This document shows positions 23,535-39,815 of a DNA stretch of 42,437 bases, one piece after another. A program made the translations under genes and the position numbers. The stretch's first letter is position 1. The number at the start of each line of letters is the position of its first letter. The stretch is from Verrucomicrobiales bacterium (GTDB taxonomy: Bacteria > Verrucomicrobiota > Verrucomicrobiia > Verrucomicrobiales > DEV007): positions 1-42,437 of the forward strand of contig JANQJH010000005.1 in the NCBI GenBank assembly GCA_028281705.1, written 5' to 3'. Under the pieces are notes generated by a model. It saw only the letters and a list, made by a program, of their open reading frames with translations, was not told where the DNA came from and made no database searches.

Positions 23535-26500
23535 CTATTCCTGCAGTTGGTATTGTTGCCGCATTTGGATGAAGCGCGCCTTCAGTGGACTGCCTTCCGG
23601 CACCTTCTCAATCGCCGTGTCGATCGATGCGACGGCGTCGGCGAACTGGCCGTTGGCCGCCTGGGAAGCCGCGAGGATGCTCAAGAACTCGGGTGCTTCA
23701 GATTGTTCGGCCACCAATTCGGCGGCTAACTGGAGGGCACGCGGTGCGTCTCTGAGATCGGGATCGCTGGTGGTGGACAAGAGGCCCGCCAGATGATAGC
23801 GGGCTTCCACGGATGCTGGAGCCAGGGCATGCATGCGGTTGAGCAGGGCGATGGCCTCCTTGGGATTGGAATTTCGCAACACGAGCGCCAACTCATAGAG
23901 CGCCCGGAGGTGGTCGGGATCACGTTGCAAGGCCTGTTGAAAATCGCGGGCGGCTTCATTGATATTTCCCATCATCTTGCGGGTTTGGCCACGATTTACC
24001 CAGAGCTCGGGGTTCTCCGCCGAGACATTGAGGGCGCGACTGAAGTGCTGCTCCGCCAGCGGCCAGCGTTTCATTTGGAAGTGGGCAAACCCAAGGTTGG
24101 CATTCGCTTTGGCATGATTGGGATTCAGATCCACGGTCCTGAGCAACTGGGCAAAGGCTTCCTGAGGTTTCTCCTGAATCAGAAGCTCCGTTCCCAGGGA
24201 GAAATGGAGCTCGGCCCGCAGCGATCGACTGTATCGATGCGGATCTTTCTCGGGAACCTCTTGCAGACATTGGCGCAGGTAGGTCTCGGCAGAGAAACCC
24301 TTGGTGGCGAGCGCTTGAGCGGTGCCAATCAATGGTGGGTTGGGGGCTGGTGGATGCAACCAACGCCCTCCCAAATCCGTTAGGAGATACATCTCGGGGG
24401 ATTTGAGGGACTCCAAGTCCTGCACAAGTATTTCGAAGGGCACGCGTCCGCGGTAGAGGACGGCCACCCGGCCGTAGGCATCGATGAGGAAAGTGAAAGG
24501 CACGGCCAACACCTTTCGAGCCTCTTGAAACTGCTTTTGGAACGCGTCGAGAATCCTTAGTTCGGCTTCGGAAAGTTCGCGATAGGGAATCTCCTGTCGC
24601 ATGATCTTCTCGAAGACCCCTTTGGAATCCTCTAAGGGCTGGTCATGGTCGCCCTGGGCCAAAGCATCTCCATTCAAAGGCAGGATAGTGACGCCTGCAA
24701 GTCGAGGGTCCGACAGGTGCTCCCGCCATTCGGCCAACTCGGCCATGCAGGTGGCGCAGTGGCGTGACCAGACATTAATGAGCATGGGGCCTTCGAAGGC
24801 CTCTTTGACGGCGTCGATGGCGGGAAAGGGCATCCGGCTAACAACGGCGCGCCGTTCAAATGAGGAAGGGAATTCGTCCAATGGCGCTCCGCCTTTCAAA
24901 GGGATCCCCTGGCCTCGCAAGGGGCGTTGCTCGACGACTCCCTGTCCTTGGCGAATCACGTAGCGGACGTTTGACCGAAGACTACTGATCACTTCCGGAG
25001 TCATCTGGCCAGGCCAATGGACGGCGAGATTCACGGGGGCTGAGTCGGCGCCCAGCCCAAAATGTTGCCATCTTGAGGCCTGCGACATGAAGCCGGTTGC
25101 CGTTCTCACCGTACGGCTCCGAGCCCTGCCGCTCGCTGGTTGGAGGACGATCCTGGCGCCGATGGCGTCGCGATTCGCCTCCAACCCTTCCAGCTTAAAG
25201 CTGATGCTATGAACTGTGGCCGAGGGTTGGAGGGTGTTTTCAAGATAGCGGACGCGGGGACTGGTCCGCCCCGCGACCCAGGCGTCGAGGTCACCATCGT
25301 GATCCGCATCGAGCACAGCCAGTGCGCGGCTATCGTCCGGAAAATCGAATCCGCTGATGGCTGAAGCATCAGTGTAAGTGCCAGCCTCCGCGTCACCCAG
25401 GTTGAGCAGAAATCGGTTACGCTCTCGGCCGCTGAAAGACTGCCCCTCCCGCATGCGTGCGTAGAGGTTCGACCAAGACGAGTGGTAGGCAGCGTTCGAG
25501 GCCTGGGTGCCGCTGGCATCTGCAGGAGATTGCGCCACGACCTGGCGCCAGAAGAAGCTTCACAGATCGTCCAGGGAATCATTGGTCACGAAGCCGTTGG
25601 CCACCAAGAGATCCTCCCATCCGTCGTTGTTGAGGTCCGCGAAGTCAGAACTCCAGGCCCAGCGGCCCAGGGTGACGTTGGCTTTCAGGGAGCGATCGAT
25701 GAAGGCGTCACCCTCACGCACAAAGAGCGCGTTGCCCCGCGCATGGCGGAAGAACTCTTGGCGCACGGCTTGGTCAAGTTCACCATGGAACTTCGTCAGT
25801 TGGGCGATGCGATGCCCAGCTGAAGAGAACATGTTGCCCACGTAGAGATCCACCAGTCCATCTCCATTGGCATCTCCCCAGGCGACAGACATGCCTGCGG
25901 AGAAATCCTCGACACCCAGGGTGGCGGCCACATCGACGAATTGACCATCGTCGTTGCGATAGAGGTTGTTGCGCCCAAAGTCATTGGCCACGTTGAGGTC
26001 CTGGTCGCCGTCCTGGTCAAAGTCTTCCCAGGAGGCGGCGTAGCTGAATCGCTGGTTGTTTGCCTGGAGATGGACTTCAGCGGTGACATCACGAAATCGC
26101 AGTTGGCCAAGGTTGCGCAGAAGTTGGTTAGGGGCGCCATTGTTGGCGTCGTGATAGGGGATGGGGTTGCCGAGGACGGAGTGCTTGCTTGAATCGGTCC
26201 TTCCGCCCTCTCGTTGCGTGATGTAGAGGTCAACGAGACCGTCGTTATCGTAGTCTGCCGCTGCCAGGGAATAGGCCATGGCCTGAAGGCGATGAGAGAA
26301 GCTGGGCCTGAAGACGCCATCTGACCTGTTGAGGACGACGATGTTTGGGTGCAGGTGAACCGCGAGTTCTTGCTCGCCGTCATTGTCAAAGTCGACGAAG
26401 AGGGCGTGCCTCGAGAGATCGTTGAAATCGAGGCCGTGATCCGAGGAGGCTTCGGTGATGCGGCCATCGGGCGCCTGCAGAAGCAGGCGATTGGGTAGGC

Positions 26501-27203
26501 CACCTTGCATGCAGAGGTAGAGGTCCTCCGTGCCGTCGCCGTTGGCGTCGCCGAGTGCCATGCCGTGGAGCGCCGTGAGATCGACGCCCAAGGTAGGATC
26601 GAGTCGATCGATCCAGTAGGTGGAGCTTAGCTTTAGTTGGGCATGGTAAGAGGGGATGCTGCCAAGGACCTCCTCGGTTCGATCCTGCATCCAAGGCTCG
26701 GCCTTGCTATAGGTTTGCCGAGAGACGCTGGCGGGCGCGATGGCGATCTTCTCGAGCAGGATTTGATCGTCCTCCCGGATCCAATGTAGAGTCCAACTCG
26801 CATGGGTATCCACGCGAGATCGAGGAGTGCGCTGATAGGTGCCGGCCAACACTTCCGTGGTGAACGCTGTCCCGATCTGACGGATGCCAATCGTCTTGAG
26901 GGTGGCTCGGGCCTCGTCCGGTGGCTCGCTCGATTGCATCAGCGCCAGGAAGGCATCGAGAGTCTCGAAAGTCTGGACGGGAGCCTGACCGGGGACGGTG
27001 CTCACGTCGATGGGGCCAAGGCGTTTGTCAATCTCAAGGGCCTCCGGGGCGTATCCCTGGGCCCGGAAGGCCTCCGAAAGAAAGCTCAAATTGGAAGCCT
27101 CGGTTTCGGCAATCATGAAGCTCTCAAGTTCCTTCATGAGTGGTTCAATCTCCGAAAAGAATCGCTCCTCTTCCCAATCGCTCCGGTCATCAGGGCTCAC
27201 CAA
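23535..27203 (-). CDS. VCBS/ASPIC-UnbV + TlpA-like thioredoxin + TPR protein crossed by an in-frame UGA (candidate selenoprotein)
   Basis: One frame runs from GTG 27203 to 23535 (1222 aa) with a single TGA at 25562-25560 (codon 548). Before it: VCBS repeats ending DLNNDGWEDLLVANGF. At the UGA: SLDDL-[UGA]-SFFWRQVVAQSP, in the middle of the expected domain. After it: the last VCBS repeat, an ASPIC/UnbV domain, a TlpA/AhpC-like thioredoxin fold with redox motif SRHCATCMAEL (CxxC, about residues 805-825) and six or more TPR repeats to the end. The coding frame is otherwise intact, so readthrough as selenocysteine is possible; a nonsense mutation is the alternative. The true N-terminus is unclear: the frame is open up to 27395 and shows a hydrophobic FATLFLAASLSNC stretch, but no good start codon. 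Confidence 0.6.
25532..25548 (-). promoter_or_regulatory. Candidate bacterial SECIS hairpin
   Basis: On the minus strand GCGCC (25548-25544) and GGCGC (25536-25532) form a perfect 5-bp stem around the loop AGGUCGU. The loop begins 16 nt after the in-frame UGA. The E. coli fdhF SECIS, as I remember it, has an AGGUCU loop about 17 nt after its UGA, so both position and the AGGUC bases agree. The same bases encode Gln-Val of the protein, so coincidence is possible. Confidence 0.5.
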
Positions 27204-30695: not shown

Positions 30696-30726
30696 GGTAA
30701 GAACTGTCAGGCCAAGCGCGTCCCAC
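30696..30726 (+). promoter_or_regulatory. ECF-type promoter motif, copy A
   Basis: GGTAAGA at 30696-30702, 16 bp, then CGTC at 30719-30722; the extended match is GGTAAGAACT-N12-GCGTCCCAC. It lies about 70 bp before the SPW-like gene. Copies B and C have the same two elements at the same spacing. A 7-mer, N16, CGTC layout is typical of ECF sigma-factor promoters. Confidence 0.65.
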
Positions 30727-30797
30727 AGACGCAGCCGGATCCGCCGGCCCGCATCAATGCCAGTTACAAACCAAATCAAACCAAAGGAGACATCACC

Positions 30798-31190
30798 ATG
30801 TTCCCACGTTTCATCACCAAGAAGATCCATTCGTATCTCGACTACCCAGTCGCTCTCAGCCTCATCGCACTTCCGTTCCTGCTTGGCCTCGGAGATTCCA
30901 GTGCGGCGGCGCTATGGCTCTCGGTGGCCACCGGAATGGCCGCGTTCATACTGACGCTGCTCACCGATCATCAGCTCGGTGTGTTCCGTATAATTCCCTA
31001 CAGAGCTCACCTGACGGTCGATTCACTCGTGGGCGTCACGTTTCTGCTCGCCCCATTCCTCTTTGGATTCAGCGGCATCGACGCGTGGTACTACTGGATC
31101 AACGCCACGGCCGTTCTGGTGGTGGTGAGCCTTCACAAACCAGAATCCGCAGAAAGCGAAATCACCGCCGGCAGCACTTCGCTCGCCTGA
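30798..31190 (+). CDS. SPW-repeat-like small membrane protein
   Basis: A 130-aa integral membrane protein with four predicted helices. YLDYPVALSLIALPFLLG at the start and IDAWYYWINATAVLVVVSL near the end resemble the duplicated motif of SPW-repeat proteins; function unknown. It is preceded by a good Shine-Dalgarno (AAAGGAG), one of few here, and by ECF-type promoter A. It is the first gene of a same-strand series running into the AhpD-like gene and the sigma/anti-sigma pair. Confidence 0.7.
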   Translation: MFPRFITKKIHSYLDYPVALSLIALPFLLGLGDSSAAALWLSVATGMAAFILTLLTDHQLGVFRIIPYRAHLTVDSLVGVTFLLAPFLFGFSGIDAWYYWINATAVLVVVSLHKPESAESEITAGSTSLA

Positions 31191-31249
31191 CCGCGATTCG
31201 CACTATCACATTTCAACCTCCATCCATCCAACATCAAATCCTAATCACC

Positions 31250-31795
31250 ATGACACGAATCAAACCCATCACCGAAGCCAACGCCGATCCGAAACAGAAG
31301 GAGATCCTGAGCAAGGTAAAGAAATCCCTTGGCGGCGTTCCCAACATCATTGGCACACTGGCACAATCCCCGGCCGCAGCAACCGCCTACCTCGGGTTCG
31401 AACAGGCGCTTTCGCTCGGAACACTGTCCCGGCCGGTCCGCGAGCGTATCGCGCTCACCGTCGGTCAGGCCAACTCGTGCCACTACTGCCTCGCCGCGCA
31501 CACCGCACTCGGCACCAAGGCGGGACTCAGCGAAGGCGAAGTGCTGAATGCTCGGCACGGCGATTCCGAAGACGCGCGAACCGCAGCCGCCCTTCGCTTT
31601 GCCGGCCAGATCGTCGAGCGACGAGGCGAGATCTCAGACGCCGATCTGGAGGATCTCCGCGCCCACGGCTACTCCGACGGCGAAACGATCGAGATCGTAG
31701 CCAACGTCGTGTTGAACATCCTGACTAACTACGCGAACCACATCGCGGGCACGGAGATCGATTTTCCGGTCGCTCCAGAGCTCGCCGCCGCCTAG
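31250..31795 (+). CDS. Carboxymuconolactone decarboxylase / AhpD-like protein
   Basis: A 181-aa protein from ATG 31250. It has the AhpD-type redox centre SCHYCLAAHT (CxxC with a histidine four residues on) at about residues 82-91, and the helical core around RPVRERIALTVGQAN. Family members reduce peroxiredoxins or act as thiol peroxidases; a few are true gamma-carboxymuconolactone decarboxylases. The intact CxxC and stress context favour an antioxidant role. It is 59 bp after the SPW-like gene. Genes of this family are common targets of ECF sigma factors. Confidence 0.88.
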   Translation: MTRIKPITEANADPKQKEILSKVKKSLGGVPNIIGTLAQSPAAATAYLGFEQALSLGTLSRPVRERIALTVGQANSCHYCLAAHTALGTKAGLSEGEVLNARHGDSEDARTAAALRFAGQIVERRGEISDADLEDLRAHGYSDGETIEIVANVVLNILTNYANHIAGTEIDFPVAPELAAA

Positions 31796-31875
31796 ATTCC
31801 CACCCATCAAACAAACGTGCTCGCCGGGCGGCCTCTGAGCGCCGCTCGGCGAAGTGCGTTTCACGATGGACACCA

Positions 31876-32502
31876 ATGACAGTACAGGATGCAGACTTTC
31901 CGGAAGCACTCACATCATTAGATCGTGAGCAGCAGGAGCGTGCCATTCATCTTCTTCGAACGCAGCTGCTCAAGGGCGTGCAGGCGGGACTCCAAGGTCG
32001 AGCAGGTGCCGATAGCGCTTTCGTCGAGGATGTCGTGCAGACTGCCCTGCTAAGGATCCTCGATCGCCTCCACACATTCGAAGGACGCAGCCGATTCTTC
32101 ACGTGGGCCATGTCCATCGCGTTGCGGGTGGCCTTCAGCGAACTGCGTCGCAAGCATTGGGGCAACGTCTCGTTGGATGTTCTCAAGGAATCGGGAAATG
32201 AACCTGCCGCATTCGATGGCGAGGAAGCGCTCCGTCCGGACCATTTGACCCAGCGTCGTCAGGCCTCCCAATTGTTGCACCGGCTGATCAACGAGAAACT
32301 TACCGAGAAACGACGCGAAGTCCTCGTCGCCGAGTTGAAAGGAATGCCGCAGGATGAAGTCGCAGTGCAGCTGGGCATGAATAGAAACGCCGTTTACAAA
32401 ACGGCACACGATGCCCGTAAGGTTCTCAAACGATCCCTCATGGAAGCCGGCTTCGATCTCGACGAACTCCACGCCACCTTTTCTTCCAACCCCACCCCCT
32501 GA
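31876..32502 (+). CDS. ECF sigma factor with zinc anti-sigma partner (sigma-1)
   Basis: A 208-aa ECF sigma factor. Region 2 includes FVEDVVQTALLRILDRLHTF and FFTWAMSIALRVAFSELRRKHW. Region 4 ends with the recognition segment VAVQLGMNRNAVYKTAHDAR. The anti-sigma gene follows after 6 bp. It is closely similar to the sigma gene at 33480, especially in the promoter-reading segments, so the two may share a promoter. Upstream GCGTTTCAC near the start resembles the -10 half of the regulon motif, but its -35 partner is weak. It probably also reads through from promoter A. Confidence 0.92.
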   Translation: MTVQDADFPEALTSLDREQQERAIHLLRTQLLKGVQAGLQGRAGADSAFVEDVVQTALLRILDRLHTFEGRSRFFTWAMSIALRVAFSELRRKHWGNVSLDVLKESGNEPAAFDGEEALRPDHLTQRRQASQLLHRLINEKLTEKRREVLVAELKGMPQDEVAVQLGMNRNAVYKTAHDARKVLKRSLMEAGFDLDELHATFSSNPTP

Positions 32503-32508
32503 TACGCC

Positions 32509-32757
32509 ATGACCCTGAAAGAAGACGAAATCAGAGAACTCATCGACCTGTTGGGCAAGACCCGCGATCGCGAAATCGATTGCGATGCATGCCTCGAGCA
32601 AGTGGCCGAATTCGCGGAGCAGCAGCTTTCCGGGAAGGAGGTTCCCGAGGCGCTGGACGCCGTGCAACAGCATCTGGACGTCTGCGGCGAGTGTCGCGAG
32701 GAGTATCGCGTCCTGATGGATGTTCTGCGATCCTCGGGAGACGAAACCCGCAATTGA
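32509..32757 (+). CDS. Zinc-finger anti-sigma factor (soluble, ZAS type)
   Basis: An 82-aa protein immediately after the sigma gene. Cys25/Cys28 and the H-x3-C-x2-C motif HLDVCGEC (His55, Cys59, Cys62) form the zinc-binding anti-sigma signature; there is no transmembrane helix. It should hold the upstream sigma factor inactive and release it when the zinc thiols are oxidised or modified. That fits a redox or electrophile signal, which is inference from the family. Confidence 0.82.
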   Translation: MTLKEDEIRELIDLLGKTRDREIDCDACLEQVAEFAEQQLSGKEVPEALDAVQQHLDVCGECREEYRVLMDVLRSSGDETRN

Positions 32758-32797
32758 CGGCACGAACCAGCCAAATAGAAAAAAGTGCTTGCAAAAC

Positions 32798-32819
32798 TTA
32801 CTTACTAGAAGGTAAGTAA
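32798..32819. promoter_or_regulatory. TetR operator 1
   Basis: Perfect inverted repeat TTACTTAC-TAGAAG-GTAAGTAA, ending 5 bp before the ATG of the TetR gene at 32825. Binding there would block its own transcription or translation start. A variant of the site lies upstream of the following sigma-factor gene. Confidence 0.75.
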
Positions 32820-32824
32820 CCTCC

Positions 32825-33409
32825 ATGCCCGGCGACCGTCGACAGCAAATCGTGGATTTGGCGAGCGAGTACCTTCAGACGCTCGGGTATGGCTCGTTCA
32901 GCTACAAGGATCTGTCGAAGAAACTGGGGATTACGAAGGCGGCAATCCACCACCACTTTCCGACCAAGGAGGAACTGGCTGCCGAGGCGATGAGGCAGTA
33001 TCACGCCAACGTTCGGGCATCGTTAGCCGATCGTGATGGGGTGGAAACAGAGCCGTGGGACCAATTGAATCGCTACCTCGAACAGGTTGAGGGAATCTGC
33101 GATCAGGAAGTCTGCATTTGTGCGGCGGGTTCGATCCAGAGCGAGCACAACTCGGTACCGGCAAGCGTCAACGCCGAGGCTGCCAAGATGATTCAGTTTC
33201 TCATCGGCTGGGTCACGGAAGTTTTGGAGCGAGGCCGAAAACAAGGCGTCATGGATTTTCCCGGCGATGCCCGCATTCAAGCGACGCTCATTTTCACCGC
33301 TGTGCAGGGCGCTCTGCAACTGGGCCGCGCTCAGGGCAAAGCCACGGCAAAGCCGGTTTTCACCCAGATCCGCCAAAACCTTCAACCGAAGGAAGCTGTC
33401 TCAGCTTGA
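32825..33409 (+). CDS. TetR/AcrR-family repressor (TetR-1)
   Basis: A 194-aa repressor. The N-terminal helix-turn-helix is FSYKDLSKKLGITKAAIHHHF at about residues 24-44, followed by PTKEELAAEAM. The C-terminal ligand domain (about 60-190) contains CDQEVCICAAGS with three cysteines; some TetR electrophile sensors use such cysteines. It is flanked by two matching operator sites, one at its own start and one before the sigma gene at 33480. It probably represses both itself and that sigma factor until a small molecule binds. Confidence 0.92.
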   Translation: MPGDRRQQIVDLASEYLQTLGYGSFSYKDLSKKLGITKAAIHHHFPTKEELAAEAMRQYHANVRASLADRDGVETEPWDQLNRYLEQVEGICDQEVCICAAGSIQSEHNSVPASVNAEAAKMIQFLIGWVTEVLERGRKQGVMDFPGDARIQATLIFTAVQGALQLGRAQGKATAKPVFTQIRQNLQPKEAVSA

Positions 33410-33430
33410 TCTCTTTTTTGCCCATAAAGC

Positions 33431-33446
33431 TACCTACTAGTAAGTA
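33431..33446. promoter_or_regulatory. TetR operator 2, before sigma-2
   Basis: TACcTACTAGTAaGTA: a 16-bp palindrome with one mismatched pair, containing the perfect core TACTAGTA and followed by AGTC. It shares TACTAG and TAAGTAA with operator 1 but with a 3-bp shorter centre. It lies 34-49 bp before the ATG of the second sigma factor. Confidence 0.6.
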
Positions 33447-33479
33447 AGTCACGGAACACACCAGAACCAACTCAGCTCG

Positions 33480-34103
33480 ATGACAACCGAAACCCTCGAC
33501 CGCGACCTCGATCGCAAGCAACAATCTGAATGGATACTTGAGAGCCTGCGCTCGACCGACGCCAACTACTCGGACGCCCTGACGGAACTCCGTCGAATCA
33601 TTCTCGCCGGGTTGATCCGTTCGCTCGGGGCGAGAGCCTCGGTCGATCTGCTCGAAGACGTCACGCAGGATTCCATTCTCAGAATTCTCGATCGCCTCGA
33701 TCAATTCCAAGGGCGGAGCCGGTTCACCACGTGGGCCATGTCCATCGCGATCCGCGGCGCCATGAGCGAACTGCGTCGACGGCATTGGAAGCACGTGTCG
33801 CTCGAAGTCGTGGTTGTCGAACGCAGTACCGAAACGGATGCCGCAGTGATGATGCAATCGACTTCCGAACAGCAGTTGCTCATTGATGCGATGCATCGGG
33901 TCATCGAGTCCGAACTAACGGAGCGACAGCGCGACGCCCTGACCGCAGAACTGCGCGGCGAACCGATGGCGGCAATCGCCAGCCGCATGGGCTGTAACCG
34001 GAACGCCATCTACAAACTGACGCACGATGCTCGCAAGAGGTTGAAGCGGGGACTGGAACGCGCGGGACACTCCGCCGCCACCGTCGCCACCGCGTTCAGT
34101 TAG
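33480..34103 (+). CDS. ECF sigma factor without anti-sigma gene (sigma-2)
   Basis: A 207-aa ECF sigma factor paralogous to the one at 31876. Region 2 has LLEDVTQDSILRILDRLDQF and FTTWAMSIAIRGAMSELRRR. Region 4 has IASRMGCNRNAIYKLTHDAR. The -10- and -35-reading segments differ from sigma-1 by only a few residues. No anti-sigma gene follows; instead a TetR operator precedes it, so control is probably transcriptional. The next unit downstream begins with ECF promoter copy B. Confidence 0.92.
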   Translation: MTTETLDRDLDRKQQSEWILESLRSTDANYSDALTELRRIILAGLIRSLGARASVDLLEDVTQDSILRILDRLDQFQGRSRFTTWAMSIAIRGAMSELRRRHWKHVSLEVVVVERSTETDAAVMMQSTSEQQLLIDAMHRVIESELTERQRDALTAELRGEPMAAIASRMGCNRNAIYKLTHDARKRLKRGLERAGHSAATVATAFS

Positions 34104-34143
34104 GCGGACACCCCCACATTCTCTGAGAAACATTCGAGATCAA

Positions 34144-34174
34144 GGTAAGACCGTGTCGGTTGGCTGCGTCTCAC
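34144..34174 (+). promoter_or_regulatory. ECF-type promoter motif, copy B
   Basis: GGTAAGA at 34144-34150, 16 bp, CGTC at 34167-34170; extended match GGTAAGACCG-N12-GCGTCTCAC. It starts 41 bp after the sigma-2 stop and lies about 78 bp before the ATG of the NTF2-like gene at 34252. Confidence 0.7.
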
Positions 34175-34251
34175 AAAGCGAAAGCAACCCGTGTGGCGAA
34201 ACCCACCCGAGAAAACGACCAAAACGACAACCCACAAAATCGAACACCACC

Positions 34252-34617
34252 ATGAAATCGGACACGAGCGAACACGACATCATCCGGAATACGGTTCAGA
34301 CCTACCTTGACGGAGCCCGATCCGGAAAAGGAGACGATATGAAACCTGCGTTCCACCCGGAGGCCACGGTCTTCGGCTACATCGGAGACCAACTCTTTTC
34401 CGGCCCCATCCGGAATCTCTTCCAATGGAATGACGAGAACGGCCCCGCAAGAGAACTCGAAGCAGACGTCAGCAGGATCGATGTCGCGGGCACGGTGGCA
34501 ACGGTGCAGCTCGAATTGGATAACTGGACCGGCCATCGGTTCACGGACCTGTTCACCCTGCTCAAGACGGATGGTTCGTGGAAAATCATGAACAAGGTCT
34601 TCCACCTTCACGGGTAA
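34252..34617 (+). CDS. NTF2/SnoaL-like protein (lumazine-binding-like family)
   Basis: A 121-aa cone-shaped NTF2-fold protein, with YLDGARSGKGDDMKPAFHPE at about residues 17-36 and a C-terminal VQLELDNWTGHRFTDLFTLL and WKIMNKVFH. The family includes small-molecule isomerases, dehydratases and binding proteins; catalysis here is unproven. ATG 34252 is used because upstream sequence is promoter B and a CA-rich leader without Shine-Dalgarno. The dehalogenase-like gene begins 32 bp after its stop, so they likely form one operon. Confidence 0.8.
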   Translation: MKSDTSEHDIIRNTVQTYLDGARSGKGDDMKPAFHPEATVFGYIGDQLFSGPIRNLFQWNDENGPARELEADVSRIDVAGTVATVQLELDNWTGHRFTDLFTLLKTDGSWKIMNKVFHLHG

Positions 34618-34649
34618 TCGAGACCGCAACTCAAGAAGCAGAGCAAGTC

Positions 34650-35609
34650 ATGAATACTCTAGCCACCACCCCAATACCAGAAGCCCGACTGACGGTAATC
34701 GACGCAGGAGAGACATTTGACGGCACTTGGCCGTTCACAGCTCACTACACGGAGGCACTCGGCTTCCAGATGCATTACATCGACGAAGGCGGAGGCGCGG
34801 ATACCCTTCTGCTTCTCCATGGCGAACCCACATGGGGTTATCTGTTCCGACAGCAGATTCCCGAGTGGTCGAGGCATGCACGTGTCGTTGCCCCTGACCA
34901 TATGGGATTCGGCAAGAGTGCCACACCAAGGAATCGGACGTATTGGCTTCAGGATCACATCGACAACCTGGAGGCATTTGTTTTGGATCTGGACCTGCAA
35001 GACATCACGCTTGTCATGCATGATTTCGGAGGTCCCGTCGGCATGGGCTTGGCCGCCCGTCATCCCGATCGAATCAAGCGGATCGTCTCAGTGAATGGAC
35101 CAACACCGTTTGGTCAATCCGATCTTGTCGATCGCCTCACCTCGAACGCCGGCGTCTCGCCGTGGTTCCAGTGGATCTTGCAAGCCGAGGAGAAGGGCAT
35201 CCTCGAGGAGGTTCTCGGTCACCTCGACTTCAACATCCTCTCGACCTTGAAGCTGAACGGTTTCGTTCGAAACGAGATCATCACCGACACATGGCTCGAA
35301 GCCTACCGCGCTCCGTATCCCACGCCGGCACATGCGGCGGGCGCCATCGGCTGGGCCAAGGGCTTCGCCACGGGTAAGCACCAGTTCGAGGTTCCTGACA
35401 AAGCGGCCGTGGCTGCGATCCTCGCAAAGCCGGCATTGGCAATCTGGGGGGAGCAGGATCACACCTTGCACGCCGAGTACTTTCTGCCGCTTTTCGCCCA
35501 GCTCTTTCCAGAGGCTCCCATTCATCGACTGCCAGATGCCGGCCATTACAGCCCGGAGGATGCGCCGGAGGAGATCGCCAAGCTCGTCATCGACTTTCTG
35601 AGCGAATAG
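34650..35609 (+). CDS. Haloalkane-dehalogenase-like alpha/beta hydrolase
   Basis: A 319-aa alpha/beta hydrolase from ATG 34650. HGEPTWGYLFR is the oxyanion-hole motif of haloalkane dehalogenases. VMHDFGGPVGMG has aspartate as the nucleophile, which distinguishes dehalogenases (and epoxide hydrolases) from serine esterases. The acid is probably in AIWGEQDHTL, and the catalytic histidine is in DAGHYSPEDAPEEI near the C-terminus. It would hydrolyse halogenated or similar xenobiotics in the cytoplasm. It follows the NTF2-like gene in the unit headed by ECF promoter B. Confidence 0.85.
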   Translation: MNTLATTPIPEARLTVIDAGETFDGTWPFTAHYTEALGFQMHYIDEGGGADTLLLLHGEPTWGYLFRQQIPEWSRHARVVAPDHMGFGKSATPRNRTYWLQDHIDNLEAFVLDLDLQDITLVMHDFGGPVGMGLAARHPDRIKRIVSVNGPTPFGQSDLVDRLTSNAGVSPWFQWILQAEEKGILEEVLGHLDFNILSTLKLNGFVRNEIITDTWLEAYRAPYPTPAHAAGAIGWAKGFATGKHQFEVPDKAAVAAILAKPALAIWGEQDHTLHAEYFLPLFAQLFPEAPIHRLPDAGHYSPEDAPEEIAKLVIDFLSE

Positions 35610-35629
35610 CGAAAAAATCAGAAAACCTG

Positions 35630-35658
35630 TTGACGCGACCGGTCGGTCGGGTTATGCC
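35630..35658 (+). promoter_or_regulatory. TetR-2 promoter with operator in its spacer
   Basis: TTGACG (35630-35635), 17 bp, TATGCC (35653-35658). The operator GCGACCGGTCGGTCGG (35635-35650) fills the spacer, so a bound repressor would exclude RNA polymerase. Transcription would start near 35664-35665, at the ATG itself, suggesting a leaderless mRNA. Confidence 0.6.
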
Positions 35659-35664
35659 TCATGC

Positions 35665-36246
35665 ATGCCCACCGCAACAGCCACCACTAGCAAGCGGGAA
35701 GAACTCCTCGACATCGCCTCCGAGATGTTCTACCGGCAGGGCTTTGGCGCCACGGGAGTGAAGCAGATCATCGAAGCAGCCGGTATCGCCAAGGGCACCT
35801 TCTACTCGCACTTTGACTCCAAGGAGGAAGTGGGCGTCGCGTGGTTGAAAAAGCGGCACGCGACTTGGAACTCCTGGCTCAAGGCGAAGCTCGAAGAGGT
35901 CAAGAGCCCGAAGGCGAAGCTTCTGGCAATCTTCGAGTTTCTCGAAAGCTGGATGGAGGAGTGCGAATTCCGGGGCTGCGCCTTTCTCAACACGCTGGCG
36001 GAGGTGCCCGACAGGGATAATCCCATGCGTCGCGAAATTGCGGCCCACAAGAAGGATCTGCAGGAACTCATTCAATCCCTTGCCTCCGAGCACTTTGCAG
36101 GAAAGTCCGGGGCATACATCAGGCAAAAGGGAACTGTCATTTTTCTTCTCTTCGAAGGTGCGCTCGTCGAAGCGCAGAACTTTTGCGATACGTGGCCCAT
36201 CGCCGCCGCACGGAAGGAAATGCGATCGTTGCTGAACAACGAATGA
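35665..36246 (+). CDS. TetR/AcrR-family repressor (TetR-2)
   Basis: A 193-aa repressor. The helix-turn-helix is TGVKQIIEAAGIAKGTFYSHF at about residues 30-50, followed by SKEEVGVAWLK. The C-terminal domain has ECEFRGCAFLNTLAEVPD, typical of the TetR subgroup that senses electrophiles or quinones (TetR_C_6/NemR-like), with paired cysteines. Its gene lies between two inverted copies of one operator, in its own promoter and before the isochorismatase-like gene. It should repress both. ATG 35665 is used; ATG 35661 is in another frame. Confidence 0.92.
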   Translation: MPTATATTSKREELLDIASEMFYRQGFGATGVKQIIEAAGIAKGTFYSHFDSKEEVGVAWLKKRHATWNSWLKAKLEEVKSPKAKLLAIFEFLESWMEECEFRGCAFLNTLAEVPDRDNPMRREIAAHKKDLQELIQSLASEHFAGKSGAYIRQKGTVIFLLFEGALVEAQNFCDTWPIAAARKEMRSLLNNE

Positions 36247-36269
36247 AACCCTTTTTATTTAGCATCAAA

Positions 36270-36285
36270 GCGACCGACCGGTCGC
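36270..36285. promoter_or_regulatory. TetR-2 operator, inverted copy
   Basis: GCGACCGACCGGTCGC is the reverse complement of the TetR-2 promoter operator at 35635-35650 in 15 of 16 positions. It sits 41 bp before the isochorismatase-like gene, so the same repressor should control that gene. Confidence 0.75.
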
Positions 36286-36325
36286 CTCAATAAACAAACA
36301 CTGCACCAACGAAAGAACCGAAACC

Positions 36326-37000
36326 ATGATTAACATGAACCAAGAAAACCTCGCTCTCGTCATCACCGATCCGCAAAACGATTTCCTCAGTCCCGAGGGT
36401 GTCACCTGGGGTGTGGTTGGCGAAAGCGTCGTGAAAAACAACACCGTCGATAACATCGAAAGCCTGTTCCGTGCCGCCAAGCAATCCGGCCTGCCTACCT
36501 TCGTCTCGCCTCATTATTACTACCCAGCCGATCACCAGTGGGAATTCGAGGGCACTGTCGAAAAGATGATGCACGACATCAGCATGTTCGACCGGAATGG
36601 TCCTCTCGATCTTGACGGCTTTACCGGTTCCGGCGCTGATTGGCTCGAACGGTACAAGCCCTTTATCGAGGACGGAGAAACCGTCGTCGTCAGCCCGCAC
36701 AAGGTCTACGGACCGGAAACCAACGACCTTGTCCTGCAACTCCGCAAGCGGGGCATCGACCGCGTCATTCTCGGCGGCATGTCCGCGAATCTCTGCGTCG
36801 AAGCCCACATGCGCGAACTCATCGAACAGGGATTCGAGGTCTACGTGGCGAAGGACGCCACCGCAGCGGCGATCACCCCGGAACTCGGCGACGGATACGC
36901 CAGCGCGGTAACCAACTTCGGTTTCGTGGCCAACGGCGTTTTCGAAACCGCTGAGATCACAGAAGCGCTCACGGGAGAACCGGCACTCGTCCTCGCCTGA
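36326..37000 (+). CDS. Isochorismatase-like cysteine hydrolase
   Basis: A 224-aa member of the isochorismatase/nicotinamidase fold. The catalytic triad is visible: Asp in VITDPQNDF (residue about 15), Lys in VSPHKVYGP (about 126) and Cys in [10 protein letters not shown] (about 155). Family members hydrolyse amides, imides or vinyl ethers. The substrate is unknown, but control by TetR-2 suggests it acts on whatever that repressor senses. ATG 36326 or ATG 36335 could be the start; the leader is CA-rich with no clear Shine-Dalgarno. Confidence 0.88.
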
Positions 37001-37081
37001 TCACGACGCGCGGACCAACCGATCACGTACAATCGCACTCCGATTACGAACCGCCTGCAGCCATTCTCACCAAAGACCTCA

Positions 37082-37106
37082 CCCGGCCGGGATGATCCCG
37101 GCCGGG
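37082..37106. terminator. Near-perfect 25-bp GC palindrome
   Basis: CCCGGCCGGGAT and ATCCCGGCCGGG are perfect 12-bp arms around a single central G. It lies 82 bp after the isochorismatase-like gene and 25 bp before the next ATG. As RNA it would form a very stable hairpin, but no T-run follows. It could be a terminator, a transcript-stabilising or translation-blocking hairpin, or a protein site. Confidence 0.45.
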
Positions 37107-37130
37107 CACCTCCTCCAAACGAACTTGACC

Positions 37131-37553
37131 ATGAGACCACCGTTGCCACCATTCACGGCTGAAACGGCCGCTGCCAAAGTGCAGGCCGCCGAAGATGCGT
37201 GGAACACCCACGATCCCGATAAGGTCGCACTCGCCTACACCGAGGATTCTCGATGGCGCAACCGCTCCGAGTTTCTCAACGGCCGCGACGAAGTCCGCGA
37301 GTTCCTGCGGCGCAAATGGGATCGGGAGCTGAACTACCGGCTCAGGAAGACTCTCTGGGCCTTCACCGACAACCGCATCGCTGTGAAGTTCGAGTACGAA
37401 TACCACGACACCGACGGTCAGTGGTATCGCGCCCATGGAAACGAGATGTGGGAGTTCGCGCCTGACGGGCTGATGCAAGTCCGCGAGGCCAGCATCAACG
37501 ATGTTCCGATCGAGGAGTCCGAGCGCCATTTCCGCTGGGAACGTCAGGCCTGA
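37131..37553 (+). CDS. DUF1348-like NTF2-fold protein
   Basis: A 140-aa protein from ATG 37131 with the pattern of DUF1348 (SnoaL/NTF2 superfamily): [40 protein letters not shown], then [20 protein letters not shown] and a C-terminal ERHFRW. Function of the family is unknown; genes of this type often accompany oxidoreductases and TetR regulators. The ATG lies 25 bp after a strong hairpin. It is the second NTF2-fold protein in this region and is not closely similar to the one at 34252. Confidence 0.85.
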
Positions 37554-37586
37554 CAGACAGTTAATCTCAACTGAAAAAAAAGACGA

Positions 37587-37617
37587 GGTAAGACCGCGAC
37601 GACTCAATGCGTCTCAC
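37587..37617 (+). promoter_or_regulatory. ECF-type promoter motif, copy C
   Basis: GGTAAGA at 37587-37593, 16 bp, CGTC at 37610-37613; extended match GGTAAGACCG-N12-GCGTCTCAC, identical to copy B in both half-sites although the spacers differ. It lies about 43 bp before the small gene at 37660. Confidence 0.7.
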
Positions 37618-37659
37618 CTGCAAACCCACCAGCAAACAAACTACTCTTCCATCTTTTCC

Positions 37660-37842
37660 ATGAACGCGATTTCCGAATCCACAGGATTGGCCGAGGCCCA
37701 TGACACTGTATTGCAGGCCATCCGGTATCAACACCCCGATTGGGTCGACGAACACGGCACCTGCCCAAACTGCGACTCCTACGAACAGAAACTCGCGGAG
37801 CTTCTCGTGCGTTTCGAGCCCGAGGAGGAGCGTGCGAGCTGA
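37660..37842 (+). CDS. Small CxxC protein of unknown function
   Basis: A 60-aa soluble, acidic protein, not recognised. HGTCPNCDSYEQKLAELL carries one CxxC pair, which could bind zinc or act as a thiol switch, followed by a helix. It is the first gene after ECF promoter C, and the next gene starts 4 bp after its stop, which supports its being real and part of the regulon. It might be a small regulator or metal-binding accessory; nothing in the sequence decides. Confidence 0.55.
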   Translation: MNAISESTGLAEAHDTVLQAIRYQHPDWVDEHGTCPNCDSYEQKLAELLVRFEPEEERAS

Positions 37843-37846
37843 GCCC

Positions 37847-38011
37847 ATGAAGACACTCCGAAAACTAGGCTCGTGGCTGGTGACTGCTGCAGGAACAACT
37901 GGCTGCGCCAACACCCATTTCGTTCACCATGAAGTCGCCATGCGGGAGCAATGCGTTCCGCAAACCGCCACCCCGCCGGCACCGACCAGACCCAACGCCG
38001 CACAACCCTAA
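37847..38011 (+). CDS. Small putative lipoprotein
   Basis: A 54-aa frame starting 4 bp after the preceding stop. MKTLRKLGSWLVTAAGTTGC looks like a lipoprotein signal with the lipid-attached cysteine at residue 20, though the hydrophobic core is short. A short mature part ending in a Pro/Ala-rich stretch would lie on the membrane. The next gene starts 13 bp downstream. Tight packing in the operon favours translation. No family was recognised. Confidence 0.4.
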   Translation: MKTLRKLGSWLVTAAGTTGCANTHFVHHEVAMREQCVPQTATPPAPTRPNAAQP

Positions 38012-38024
38012 CTGCCGAAAAACA

Positions 38025-38627
38025 ATGGGACAGAACTTCTCCACATTCACCTTCACACCCAGCGTCGAGGAGGCGCAAGAACGCTACGGTTCGCGCAAGA
38101 ACTACGCTGACATGGCTGAGGAACCCGATCGCTTCAACCTCACGGCCAAGGAACTCGGTTTCATCGAGTCCCGCGACAGCTTTTACATGGCGACCGTGGG
38201 CGAGAACGGCTGGCCTTACGTGCAGTTCCGCGGCGGAGCGCGCGGTTTTTTCAAAGTGTTGGGAGAACGCACGCTTGGCTTCGCCGACTTCAAGGGCAAC
38301 CGGCAGTACATCAGCACCGGCAACATCAACGCCGAGAAGAAAGCGATGCTGTTCCTCATCGACTACCCTTCTCGCCAGCGCCTCAAGATCTGGGCAACCA
38401 GCGAGATCATGGACGTTGGCGACGCGCCCGAACTCGCCTCCCGGCTAGTCGTCCCCGATTATCGCGCCAAGGTGGAGCGCCTGTTTGTTTTCACCGTCGA
38501 AGCCTACGACTGGAATTGTCCGGCTCACATCACACAGCGCTACTCGTTGGAGGAAATCGAGACCGAGATGTTGAACGGAAATCCGAAGTTCGCCTCGCTG
38601 GGTCAGGCATCGCTTTCAATTTCGTAG
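38025..38627 (+). CDS. Pyridoxamine-5'-phosphate-oxidase-like flavoprotein
   Basis: A 200-aa protein from ATG 38025 with the split-barrel FMN-binding fold: FIESRDSFYMATVGENGWPY, VQFRGGARGFFKVL, LGFADFKGNRQYISTGNI, and LFLIDYPSRQRLKIWATSEI. Family members bind FMN or F420 and reduce or bind small molecules; most are not true PNP oxidases. The C-terminal CPAHITQRY is found in related proteins of this group. It ends the unit headed by ECF promoter C and overlaps the 3' end of the convergent membrane-protein gene. Confidence 0.88.
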   Translation: MGQNFSTFTFTPSVEEAQERYGSRKNYADMAEEPDRFNLTAKELGFIESRDSFYMATVGENGWPYVQFRGGARGFFKVLGERTLGFADFKGNRQYISTGNINAEKKAMLFLIDYPSRQRLKIWATSEIMDVGDAPELASRLVVPDYRAKVERLFVFTVEAYDWNCPAHITQRYSLEEIETEMLNGNPKFASLGQASLSIS

Positions 38628-39161: not shown

Positions 39162-39815
39162 ATGAACAAACGTTCCTACGGCCAGCACTGTTCTCTCGCG
39201 TATGCGCTCGACATCATCGGGGACCGCTGGACGCTGCTGATGATTCGCGAGTTGCTCATCGGCGAGAGCCGCTACAAGGATCTCCTTTCCGCTCTCCAAG
39301 GCATCGGAACCAATTTATTGGCGAAGCGCCTGCAGGAACTGATCGAAGTTGGAGTCGTCGAGAAGGACTCCGAGCAGCCATCCGGGAGGAATGCAGCCTA
39401 TCGCCTGACCGAGTTCGGACTGGGGCTGAGACCCGTCGTATTCGAGTTGATACGGTGGGGATATCGACTGCCACCCTTCGATGACGTCATGGAGGGCCCG
39501 ACTTCCAATTCACGATGGGACCTTCTGGCCGTGGAGGCGCTTCGCCGCCACGCTCCGCCAAAGAAGTTCAACGCCTGCTGCAACTTCAGTGTTGGCGAAG
39601 CCTTGCAGTTTCACCTACGCTGCAAGAACGGCGTTGCCGAGGTCCTGCCGGCGCATGCTGAGGACGCGGATGCCACCATCTCAGGCGATCCGCAAGACCA
39701 TCGTGCTGTCGTTCTCGGAGAGCTATCGATTGCGGTCGCAATCAAGCAGAAGAGACTAACTGTACGTGGCGACAGGGCAAAGGCGATGCGGATGATGGCC
39801 CTGTTTCAAGAGTGA
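39162..39815 (+). CDS. HxlR-family regulator with C-terminal SCP2-like domain
   Basis: A 217-aa protein. Residues about 1-100 are an HxlR winged helix (YALDIIGDRWTLLMIRELLI, then YKDLLSALQGIGTNLLAKRL and a wing with GRNAAYRLTEFG). Residues about 115-217 resemble the sterol-carrier-protein-2-like ligand domain found in some HxlR proteins. CNACC-type cysteines (FNACCNFS) at about 138-145 could sense thiol stress, as in aldehyde-responsive HxlR regulators. It probably controls the divergent membrane-protein gene. Confidence 0.85.
   Translation: MNKRSYGQHCSLAYALDIIGDRWTLLMIRELLIGESRYKDLLSALQGIGTNLLAKRLQELIEVGVVEKDSEQPSGRNAAYRLTEFGLGLRPVVFELIRWGYRLPPFDDVMEGPTSNSRWDLLAVEALRRHAPPKKFNACCNFSVGEALQFHLRCKNGVAEVLPAHAEDADATISGDPQDHRAVVLGELSIAVAIKQKRLTVRGDRAKAMRMMALFQE

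Follow-up and report, generated by a model that had tools for sequence, protein, structure and literature searches.

The window analysed here is a 42,437-nucleotide stretch of contig JANQJH010000005.1 from a Verrucomicrobiales bacterium, and it contains a forward-strand gene cluster in which one pair of sequence boxes occurs three times, very probably as promoters read by a sigma factor of the extracytoplasmic function (ECF) type encoded beside them, within a small stress-response system. A search of both strands for GGTAAGA-N16-CGTC, with the spacer allowed to range over N14-18 and shuffled sequence as the control, revealed three matches, all on the + strand (30696-30722, 34144-34170 and 37587-37613), against a shuffled-window mean of 0.02 and a largest count of 1. 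The first-pass annotation had reported these three copies at fixed spacing, with no further copy on either strand, and both observations were reproduced. At all three sites the -10 box is preceded by G and followed by yCAC, giving the putative promoters 1 (30696-30726, GGTAAGA-N15-GCGTCcCAC), 2 (34144-34174) and 3 (37587-37617, like promoter 2 GGTAAGA-N15-GCGTCtCAC). Promoters 2 and 3 are assigned as motif matches, and the box of promoter 1 also precedes SPW, CMD and YHS genes of sigma relatives. The start codons lie 75 nt (SPW gene, 30798), 81 nt (NTF2-like gene, 34252) and 46 nt (CxxC gene, 37660) past the end of the respective -10 box.

Promoter 1 lies upstream of four genes on the + strand, encoding an SPW-domain small protein (30798-31190; PF03779, E 5e-9), a CMD/AhpD-like peroxidase-related protein (31250-31795; PF02627, with TIGR00778 above and TIGR01926 slightly below cut-off), the ECF sigma factor sigma-1 (31876-32502) and an 82-aa zinc-type anti-sigma (32509-32757). 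Between promoters 1 and 2 sits a second gene pair, for TetR-family repressor 1 (TetR-1, 32825-33409; PF00440) and the ECF sigma factor sigma-2 (33480-34103), which has no adjoining anti-sigma gene. Promoter 2 is followed by genes for an NTF2-like protein (34252-34617; Lumazine_bd_2/SnoaL_3 in Pfam), an alpha/beta hydrolase (34650-35609), TetR-family repressor 2 (TetR-2, 35665-36246; PF00440, PF16925), an isochorismatase-fold cysteine hydrolase (36326-37000; PF00857) and a DUF1348 NTF2-like protein (37092-37553; PF07080). Promoter 3 precedes genes for a 60-aa CxxC protein (37660-37842), a 54-aa putative lipoprotein with a weak lipobox (37847-38011) and a PPOX-type flavoprotein (38025-38627; PF01243). 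The starts of the two small proteins were chosen within the open reading frames (ORFs) 37501-37842 and 37700-38011, the longer frames having no Pfam match. An NTF2-like/dehalogenase unit had been proposed downstream of 34144. Both gene families were found there, but the run of genes behind promoter 2 is broken by the TetR-2 gene with its own palindromes, so that the isochorismatase/DUF1348 part may have a separate promoter. The proposed dehalogenase is a member of the haloalkane dehalogenase/epoxide hydrolase family, with HDFGG versus HDWGG in the best solved relative.

The genome from which the window derives (8,320,601 bases in 678 contigs, 91% complete) was searched with the same motif. GGTAAGA-N16-CGTC gave four matches, the three window sites and C324:269, which sits under a mechanical 387-aa ORF. 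The longer form GGTAAGA-N16-CGTCnCAC gave exactly the three window sites at 0 mismatches, none in the 8.32 Mb at 1 mismatch, and 23 matches at 2 mismatches; the reversed-pattern control gave 18+27 = 45 matches altogether. Four further matches to a degenerate pattern were found, three under ORFs and the fourth on C252. Random occurrence throughout the genome had been named as the observation that would speak against the motif, and the strict form with CGTCnCAC is confined to the window sites; since the assembly is 91% complete, an additional site in the missing portion is possible.

The two sigma factors are 208 aa (sigma-1) and 207 aa (sigma-2) long, and contain Pfam regions 2 (PF04542) and 4 (PF08281). 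Their TIGR02937 scores of 76.9 and 65.9 bits exceed the cut-off of 42.9, in agreement with the earlier count of two ECF sigma factors in this region. They are 45% identical (tblastn), and the next match in the own genome is at 28%. The Rhodopirellula/Verrucomicrobium sigma subfamily model TIGR02989 gave 44.1 and 55.3 bits, below its cut-off of 124.55. Pfam search detected no SnoaL domain in either protein, and both stop after region 4. A helix pattern, R-[NKS]-x-x-Y-K-x-x-H-D-[AG]-R-[KR], is common to sigma-1, sigma-2 and the related sigma factors described below, and its co-occurrence with the box suggests that this recognition helix reads GGTAAGA. The bipartite -35/-10 arrangement with a spacer of about 16 bases, ahead of the sigma factor's own operon, is that of an ECF promoter at the sequence level.

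Searches detected relatives of sigma-1 in 8 of 386 genomes of the order (E <= 1e-14) and 4 of 387 in a phylum draw, and of 384 genomes of the class, 6 matched a sigma profile (E <= 1e-30), the own genome being included in each count. Among the eight matching genomes of the order draw, the own genome is the sole member of its family, 73 others of which are present in a 386-genome order draw. The group compared here consists of 13 other genomes of the phylum, with the neighbourhoods of all 13 examined; G426, at 30% identity, was dropped as a member because it has an ordinary helix and neither an anti-sigma relative nor a full site; it lacks both the helix pattern and the GGTAAG box. An anti-sigma relative follows the sigma gene in 12 of the 13 (BLAST). 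In G861, anti-sigma pieces lie in different frames behind the sigma gene (L109:9640-9935), as a broken gene or an assembly error; the same genome has AGTC as its -10 box. Genes for CMD, SPW, YHS, DUF1348, PPOX-like, SDR, hydrolase and uracil-DNA glycosylase (UDG) proteins recur near the sigma gene in varying sets. These include relatives of the window's hydrolase (26-29%, in G349, G659 and G775), DUF1348 protein (66-69%, in G349, G775 and G843) and flavoprotein (42%, in G843) adjoining the sigma gene. The UDG gene follows the anti-sigma (or thioredoxin) gene at L050:7330-7902, L051:8488-9060, L055:4116-4760, L056:8297-8932 and L115:1931-2647, and its recurrence seems to tie DNA repair to the regulon. 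In G153, truncated CMD and SPW frames are fused behind an intact GGTAAGA site (L051:10051-10420), resembling a broken remnant, and in G843 a 716-aa protein with a vanadium-haloperoxidase-like domain is encoded directly after the anti-sigma (L106:9937-12087), which hints at reactive halogens.

A GGTAAG[A/G] box was found upstream of the cluster in 13/13 genomes (GGTAAGA in 12, GGTAAGG in G358), and a full site, with [CT][GA]TC 15-16 bases downstream of the box, in 11/13. Orientation was analysed at 13 loci, namely 11 group loci (nine genomes and two from Methylocystis), G426 and Nocardioides. The full site lay on the sigma strand at 10/11 group loci and on the opposite strand at 0/11, compared with 0-2% per locus in shuffles; neither G426 nor Nocardioides had one. 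The consensus was fixed after seven relatives had shown it, and eight group loci were examined afterwards (L051, L052, the two Methylocystis loci, G843, G820, G775 and G861), of which 8/8 had the box and 6/8 the full site. In an alignment of 22 equal-spacing sites, GGTAAG and the TC of the -10 box never vary, and 19 of the sites have G immediately ahead of the -10 box; that GGTAAG is invariant is a selection effect, since the sites were chosen by that box. The predicted consensus is GGTAAGA-N15-G[CT][GA]TC. Motif, spacing, orientation and co-occurrence with the sigma factor are established here by sequence comparison, and because the same box precedes the same kinds of genes in other bacteria with the same sigma factor, the boxes are very probably ECF promoters. 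The promoter interpretation of the first-pass annotation is thereby supported by recurrence in relatives, sense orientation and the unlinked sites described below; its CGTC -10 box proved too narrow, as CATC and TGTC are also used in relatives, and CCTC or AGTC in two genomes. The strict pattern had one match each in G354, G158 and G049 among the 386 genomes of the order; none is among the sigma carriers detected in the order, and these matches were taken as background.

Relatives outside the phylum were sampled from nine records, of which Nocardioides, a Methylocystis rosea plasmid (Alphaproteobacteria, NZ_CP044330), H11, H12, H14 and H16 were examined, with H13, H15 and a second M. rosea plasmid left out. 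On the examined M. rosea plasmid, two sigma factors of the group are encoded, with a gene for a small zinc-type protein after each, and the two Methylocystis plasmid loci carry box and full site. Both anti-sigma genes have a site upstream, and so do genes for a multicopper oxidase and a truncated haemoglobin; the haemoglobin site has a 15-base spacer. Two of the GGTAAGA sites (L093:7661 and L095:4703) lie within the 3' ends of the sigma genes and face the anti-sigma genes, a possible negative feedback. In Nonomuraea (4 kb from the sigma gene) and Nocardioides, GGTAAGA is accompanied by ACACC replacing the -10 box. Such sequences, with ACACC 15-16 bases downstream in place of YRTC, are at L094:4555 (+), L094:4539 (-) and L098:8082. 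The Nocardioides sigma has the recognition-helix pattern, yet no full promoter site. The search for related loci also yielded four sigma factors at 23-32% identity, from Janthinobacterium (two), Duganella and Mediterranea.

The 82-aa protein encoded directly after sigma-1 contains the motif C25-x29-H55-x3-C59-x2-C62, that is, the Hx3Cx2C with an upstream cysteine that characterizes zinc-type anti-sigmas (ZAS). C25, H55, C59 and C62 are kept in 13/13 rows of an alignment comprising the window, nine genomes, two Methylocystis and Nocardioides, and the zinc-ligand pattern is present in three further genomes outside it. Comparison of an anti-sigma profile with solved structures gave RsrA (E 0.018), DdvA (E 0.43) and ChrR (E 0.82), and unrelated chains scored comparably, from E 0.24 on. 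The RsrA equivalog model TIGR03988 scored 23.8 bits, below its cut-off of 62.5, and no anti-sigma relatives were detected on plasmids at E 1e-3 (tblastn). Gene adjacency suggests that the protein is the anti-sigma holding sigma-1. PMC7406223 reports Hx3Cx2C in about 72% of the soluble anti-sigmas of class I; its authors consider this to fit redox sensing, and note that the zinc site can be purely structural.

Several results weigh against reading the boxes as promoters of such a sigma/anti-sigma system. The Cys-His gap of x29 is longer than the x23-26 quoted for ZAS in the part of PMC7907618 that describes them. The -10 rule is broken in G282 (CCTC) and G861 (AGTC), and the [CT][GA]TC form was broadened only after several loci had been viewed. 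Strict GGTAAGA-N16-CGTC occurs outside the window at only three sites taken as real, namely L095:4703, a distal SPW site in G282 and a thioredoxin site in G843. The full site was absent at the five actinobacterial relatives examined (L094, L098 and the Streptomyces loci L096, L097 and L099), with L094, and likewise L098, having helix pattern and GGTAAGA but ACACC; it was also absent at L039-L041, whose sigma factors are 29-32% relatives, L042 being outside that scan. The regulon's gene content varies, which makes the signal uncertain. Finally, the consensus is genome-wide no commoner than chance: GGTAAGA-N15-GYRTC has 30 sites in the 11 carrier genomes, spread over 10 of them, versus 25 for the reversed pattern.

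Because the consensus occurs at chance frequency, single distal matches need gene context, and most are background. Nine of the 30 sites are at sigma clusters and 21 elsewhere, of which 4 precede regulon-type genes: an SPW gene in G268 (70 nt downstream; 63% identical to the window SPW), another in G282 (64 nt; 61%), a YHS gene in G843 (66% identical to the YHS of L053), and in G843 also a thioredoxin gene (60 nt), then UDG. The other 17 sit under mechanical ORFs of at least 113 aa, a crude test, as some cluster sites and 2 of the 4 regulon-type sites are also overlapped by such ORFs. A wider pattern was likewise no commoner than its control in 11 genomes, context being examined only for matches with a locus. 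SPW itself was found in 6 of 372 genomes of the order, 5 of which are sigma carriers. In these it lies directly under a site in the own genome, G243, G268 and G282, and second in the operon in G203; the 3.3 kb locus of the sixth genome, the non-carrier G008, has no GGTAAG. A Fisher table of SPW in 5/8 carriers versus 1/364 gives 6e-9, in which the carrier and SPW draws differ in size and all 8 carriers are assumed to be in the SPW draw. Chance, or local duplication of non-functional sequence, could account for three copies within 7 kb of a single contig, but is most improbable, as the spacers and flanks of the copies differ, the shuffle expectation is 0.02, and the motif recurs in other genomes and at unlinked genes of the same families.

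In a rival reading, only sigma-2 (or another ECF sigma factor) recognises the boxes, and sigma-1 with its anti-sigma has other targets. Promoter 2 starts 40 nt past the sigma-2 stop codon, the sigma factors of G349, G358 and G775 have sigma-2 as their best window match, and sigma-2 is free of an adjoining anti-sigma gene. We consider this unlikely, since promoter 1 leads the sigma-1 operon, the recognition-helix pattern is common to both proteins, and the same -35 box is found at the nearest tree relatives of sigma-1 (G203, G153 and G491), each of which had a single match in the sigma-1 search.

Putative operators flank both TetR genes. For TetR-1, TACTTACTAGAAGGTA (32799-32814) lies before the tetR-1 gene within an inverted repeat (32796-32817), and TACCTACTAGTAAGTA (33431-33446), with 13/16 of the same bases, lies before the sigma-2 gene. 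For TetR-2, the palindrome ACGCGACCG..CGGTCGGGT is at 35633-35652 and GCGACCG..CGGTCGC is at 36270-36285, before the isochorismatase gene. The simplest reading of position and symmetry is that each repressor would shut off its own gene and the unit behind it, sigma-2 in the case of TetR-1 and the isochorismatase unit in that of TetR-2. Across ten relative neighbourhoods no ORF had a window TetR as its best match; G861 has a partial TetR-2 match about 1 kb downstream. As the TetR-1 palindrome contains GGTAAGTA, and GGTAAG is common to its operator region (32796-32819) and the boxes, the boxes could be read as TetR-1 half-operators; this is very unlikely, as each box has a second box at a fixed distance, and the boxes recur in 10 + 4 relative loci where no ORF matched TetR-1 best (BLAST).

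The gap between the CMD and sigma-1 genes (31796-31875, +) is predicted to fold into a strong RNA stem (-42.1 kcal/mol, z -6.2), possibly a processing or attenuation element. Among six effector-sigma gaps folded, those of the window, L052 (z -6.1) and L054 (-5.9) are strong, those of L060 (-2.7) and L050 (39 nt, -2.7) moderate, and L053 gave no fold; the stems of the relatives are at L052:10188-10316, L054:5046-5155 and L060:9888-9975. By acting as a leaky terminator or a processing site, such a stem might lower the output of sigma compared with that of the effector. The leaders of 46-81 nt after each window box, and the modest conservation of a few letters past the -10, could suggest that the paired boxes work as an RNA leader element or as an activator site and not as a sigma-factor promoter. 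This explanation is very unlikely, as the strongly conserved letters are those of the two promoter-like boxes, which have the spacing of ECF promoters, and an ECF sigma gene accompanies the box.

With the boxes taken as ECF promoters, the best explanation, to which we give high confidence, is the following. RNA polymerase with the group ECF sigma would recognise the -35 GGTAAGA and the -10 G[CT][GA]TC (CGTC in the window). Sigma-1 would be held by the 82-aa zinc-thiol anti-sigma, and be freed by oxidation or modification of its cysteines. Freed sigma-1 would turn on its own operon (SPW, CMD/AhpD, sigma-1 and anti-sigma) and also the two neighbouring units with the hydrolase, NTF2-like and flavoprotein genes. 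Sigma-2, with the same helix pattern and a position behind a TetR gene, would probably provide a second, ligand-triggered entry to the same promoters. Binding, release, signal and the role of sigma-2 are inferred here. In individual genomes, the box precedes, or the cluster contains, genes for CMD/AhpD, thioredoxin, truncated haemoglobin, multicopper oxidase, a DUF417 protein and UDG. The chances are about even that the signal is stress from oxidants or electrophiles, detected through the zinc-thiol anti-sigma; the detoxification role suggested in the first-pass annotation would follow from the gene families only. In its fullest form, the model is a dual-input circuit of paralogues with the same specificity, sigma-1 being controlled post-translationally by the thiol/zinc anti-sigma and sigma-2 transcriptionally by a ligand-gated TetR, such that either signal fires the three promoters; the group would then stand for a regulon of the phylum, undescribed so far, with GGTAAGA-N15-GYRTC promoters (SPW, CMD, YHS, DUF1348, thioredoxin and UDG), possibly directed at stress by reactive halogen, oxygen or nitrogen species. 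We put this forward tentatively, rating it at slightly below even.

Directly past the cluster lies a gene for an HxlR regulator with an SCP2 domain (39162-39815); an HxlR gene also adjoins the sigma cluster of G775. Elsewhere in the window, 25563-27203 (-) belongs to a large paralogous family: the own genome has 18 matches, and three genomes of the same genus have 12-14. Contamination is unlikely, since a gene elsewhere on the contig matches the own genome and genus best. Horizontal gain of the cluster is hinted at by the own genome being the only match in its family in the order draw, and is not claimed, since GC is even across the window.

The regulon is not described in the relevant passages of PMC3426412, PMC6180224, PMC3420878, PMC7907618, PMC7406223 or PMC8103513. 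No description of a GGTAAGA ECF promoter or an SPW/YHS sigma regulon was found in searches of openly licensed literature, a scope that leaves out many journals and the 2021 ECF reclassification. An ECF sigma with a ZAS anti-sigma is of a known kind, while this promoter specificity and regulon were not found described in these searches. The consensus gives an ECF group a promoter code that can be tested, and it brings the uncharacterised SPW, YHS and DUF1348 genes together in one probable stress regulon. As the motif marked unlinked targets of the same families in other genomes, it can be used as a search tool alongside gene context. If true, the two-lock circuit would be a clean natural case of one promoter set served by two differently gated sigma paralogues.

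In the SigR-RsrA system of Streptomyces, the anti-sigma is a small soluble protein with Hx3Cx2C, and the SigR -35 box is GGAAT. The window system resembles it in its small Hx3Cx2C anti-sigma, for which RsrA is the best solved match (E 0.018), and in the thioredoxin gene under the box in one carrier, G843; it differs in its -35 GGTAAGA, in missing the RsrA model cut-off, and in its other targets. In ECF41 sigma factors, the C-terminal extension is SnoaL-like. The promoter-related passages of PMC3426412 describe ECF41 with a CMD neighbour as target, a CGTC -10 with a 16-base spacer and a very small local regulon, features that the window system shares. They also give a -35 of TGTCACA, a fused C-terminal regulatory extension and no obvious anti-sigma, whereas the window has GGTAAGA at all three sites, sigma factors that stop after region 4, and a separate zinc-type anti-sigma after sigma-1.

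RpoE2-HrsE of Haemophilus influenzae (ECF13), as outlined in PMC7907618, has a 67-aa cytoplasmic ZAS cotranscribed with the sigma, is tied to the hypochlorite response, and acts on neighbouring targets. The likeness to the window system, at the level of gene layout, lies in the small ZAS gene alongside the sigma gene and the neighbouring target genes; the targets described for RpoE2 are msrAB and a transporter. EcfF-OsrA of Bradyrhizobium (ECF16) is presented in the corresponding passages of PMC3420878 as an autoregulated ECF sigma with a cysteine-dependent anti-sigma, induced by reactive oxygen. The window system is similar in its cysteine-type anti-sigma and in a sigma with the box before its own operon, and differs from EcfF-OsrA in that the latter has the box GTAAC(g,a)-N14-15-(c,t)CG(t,a) and a larger anti-sigma with functional Cys129 and Cys179.

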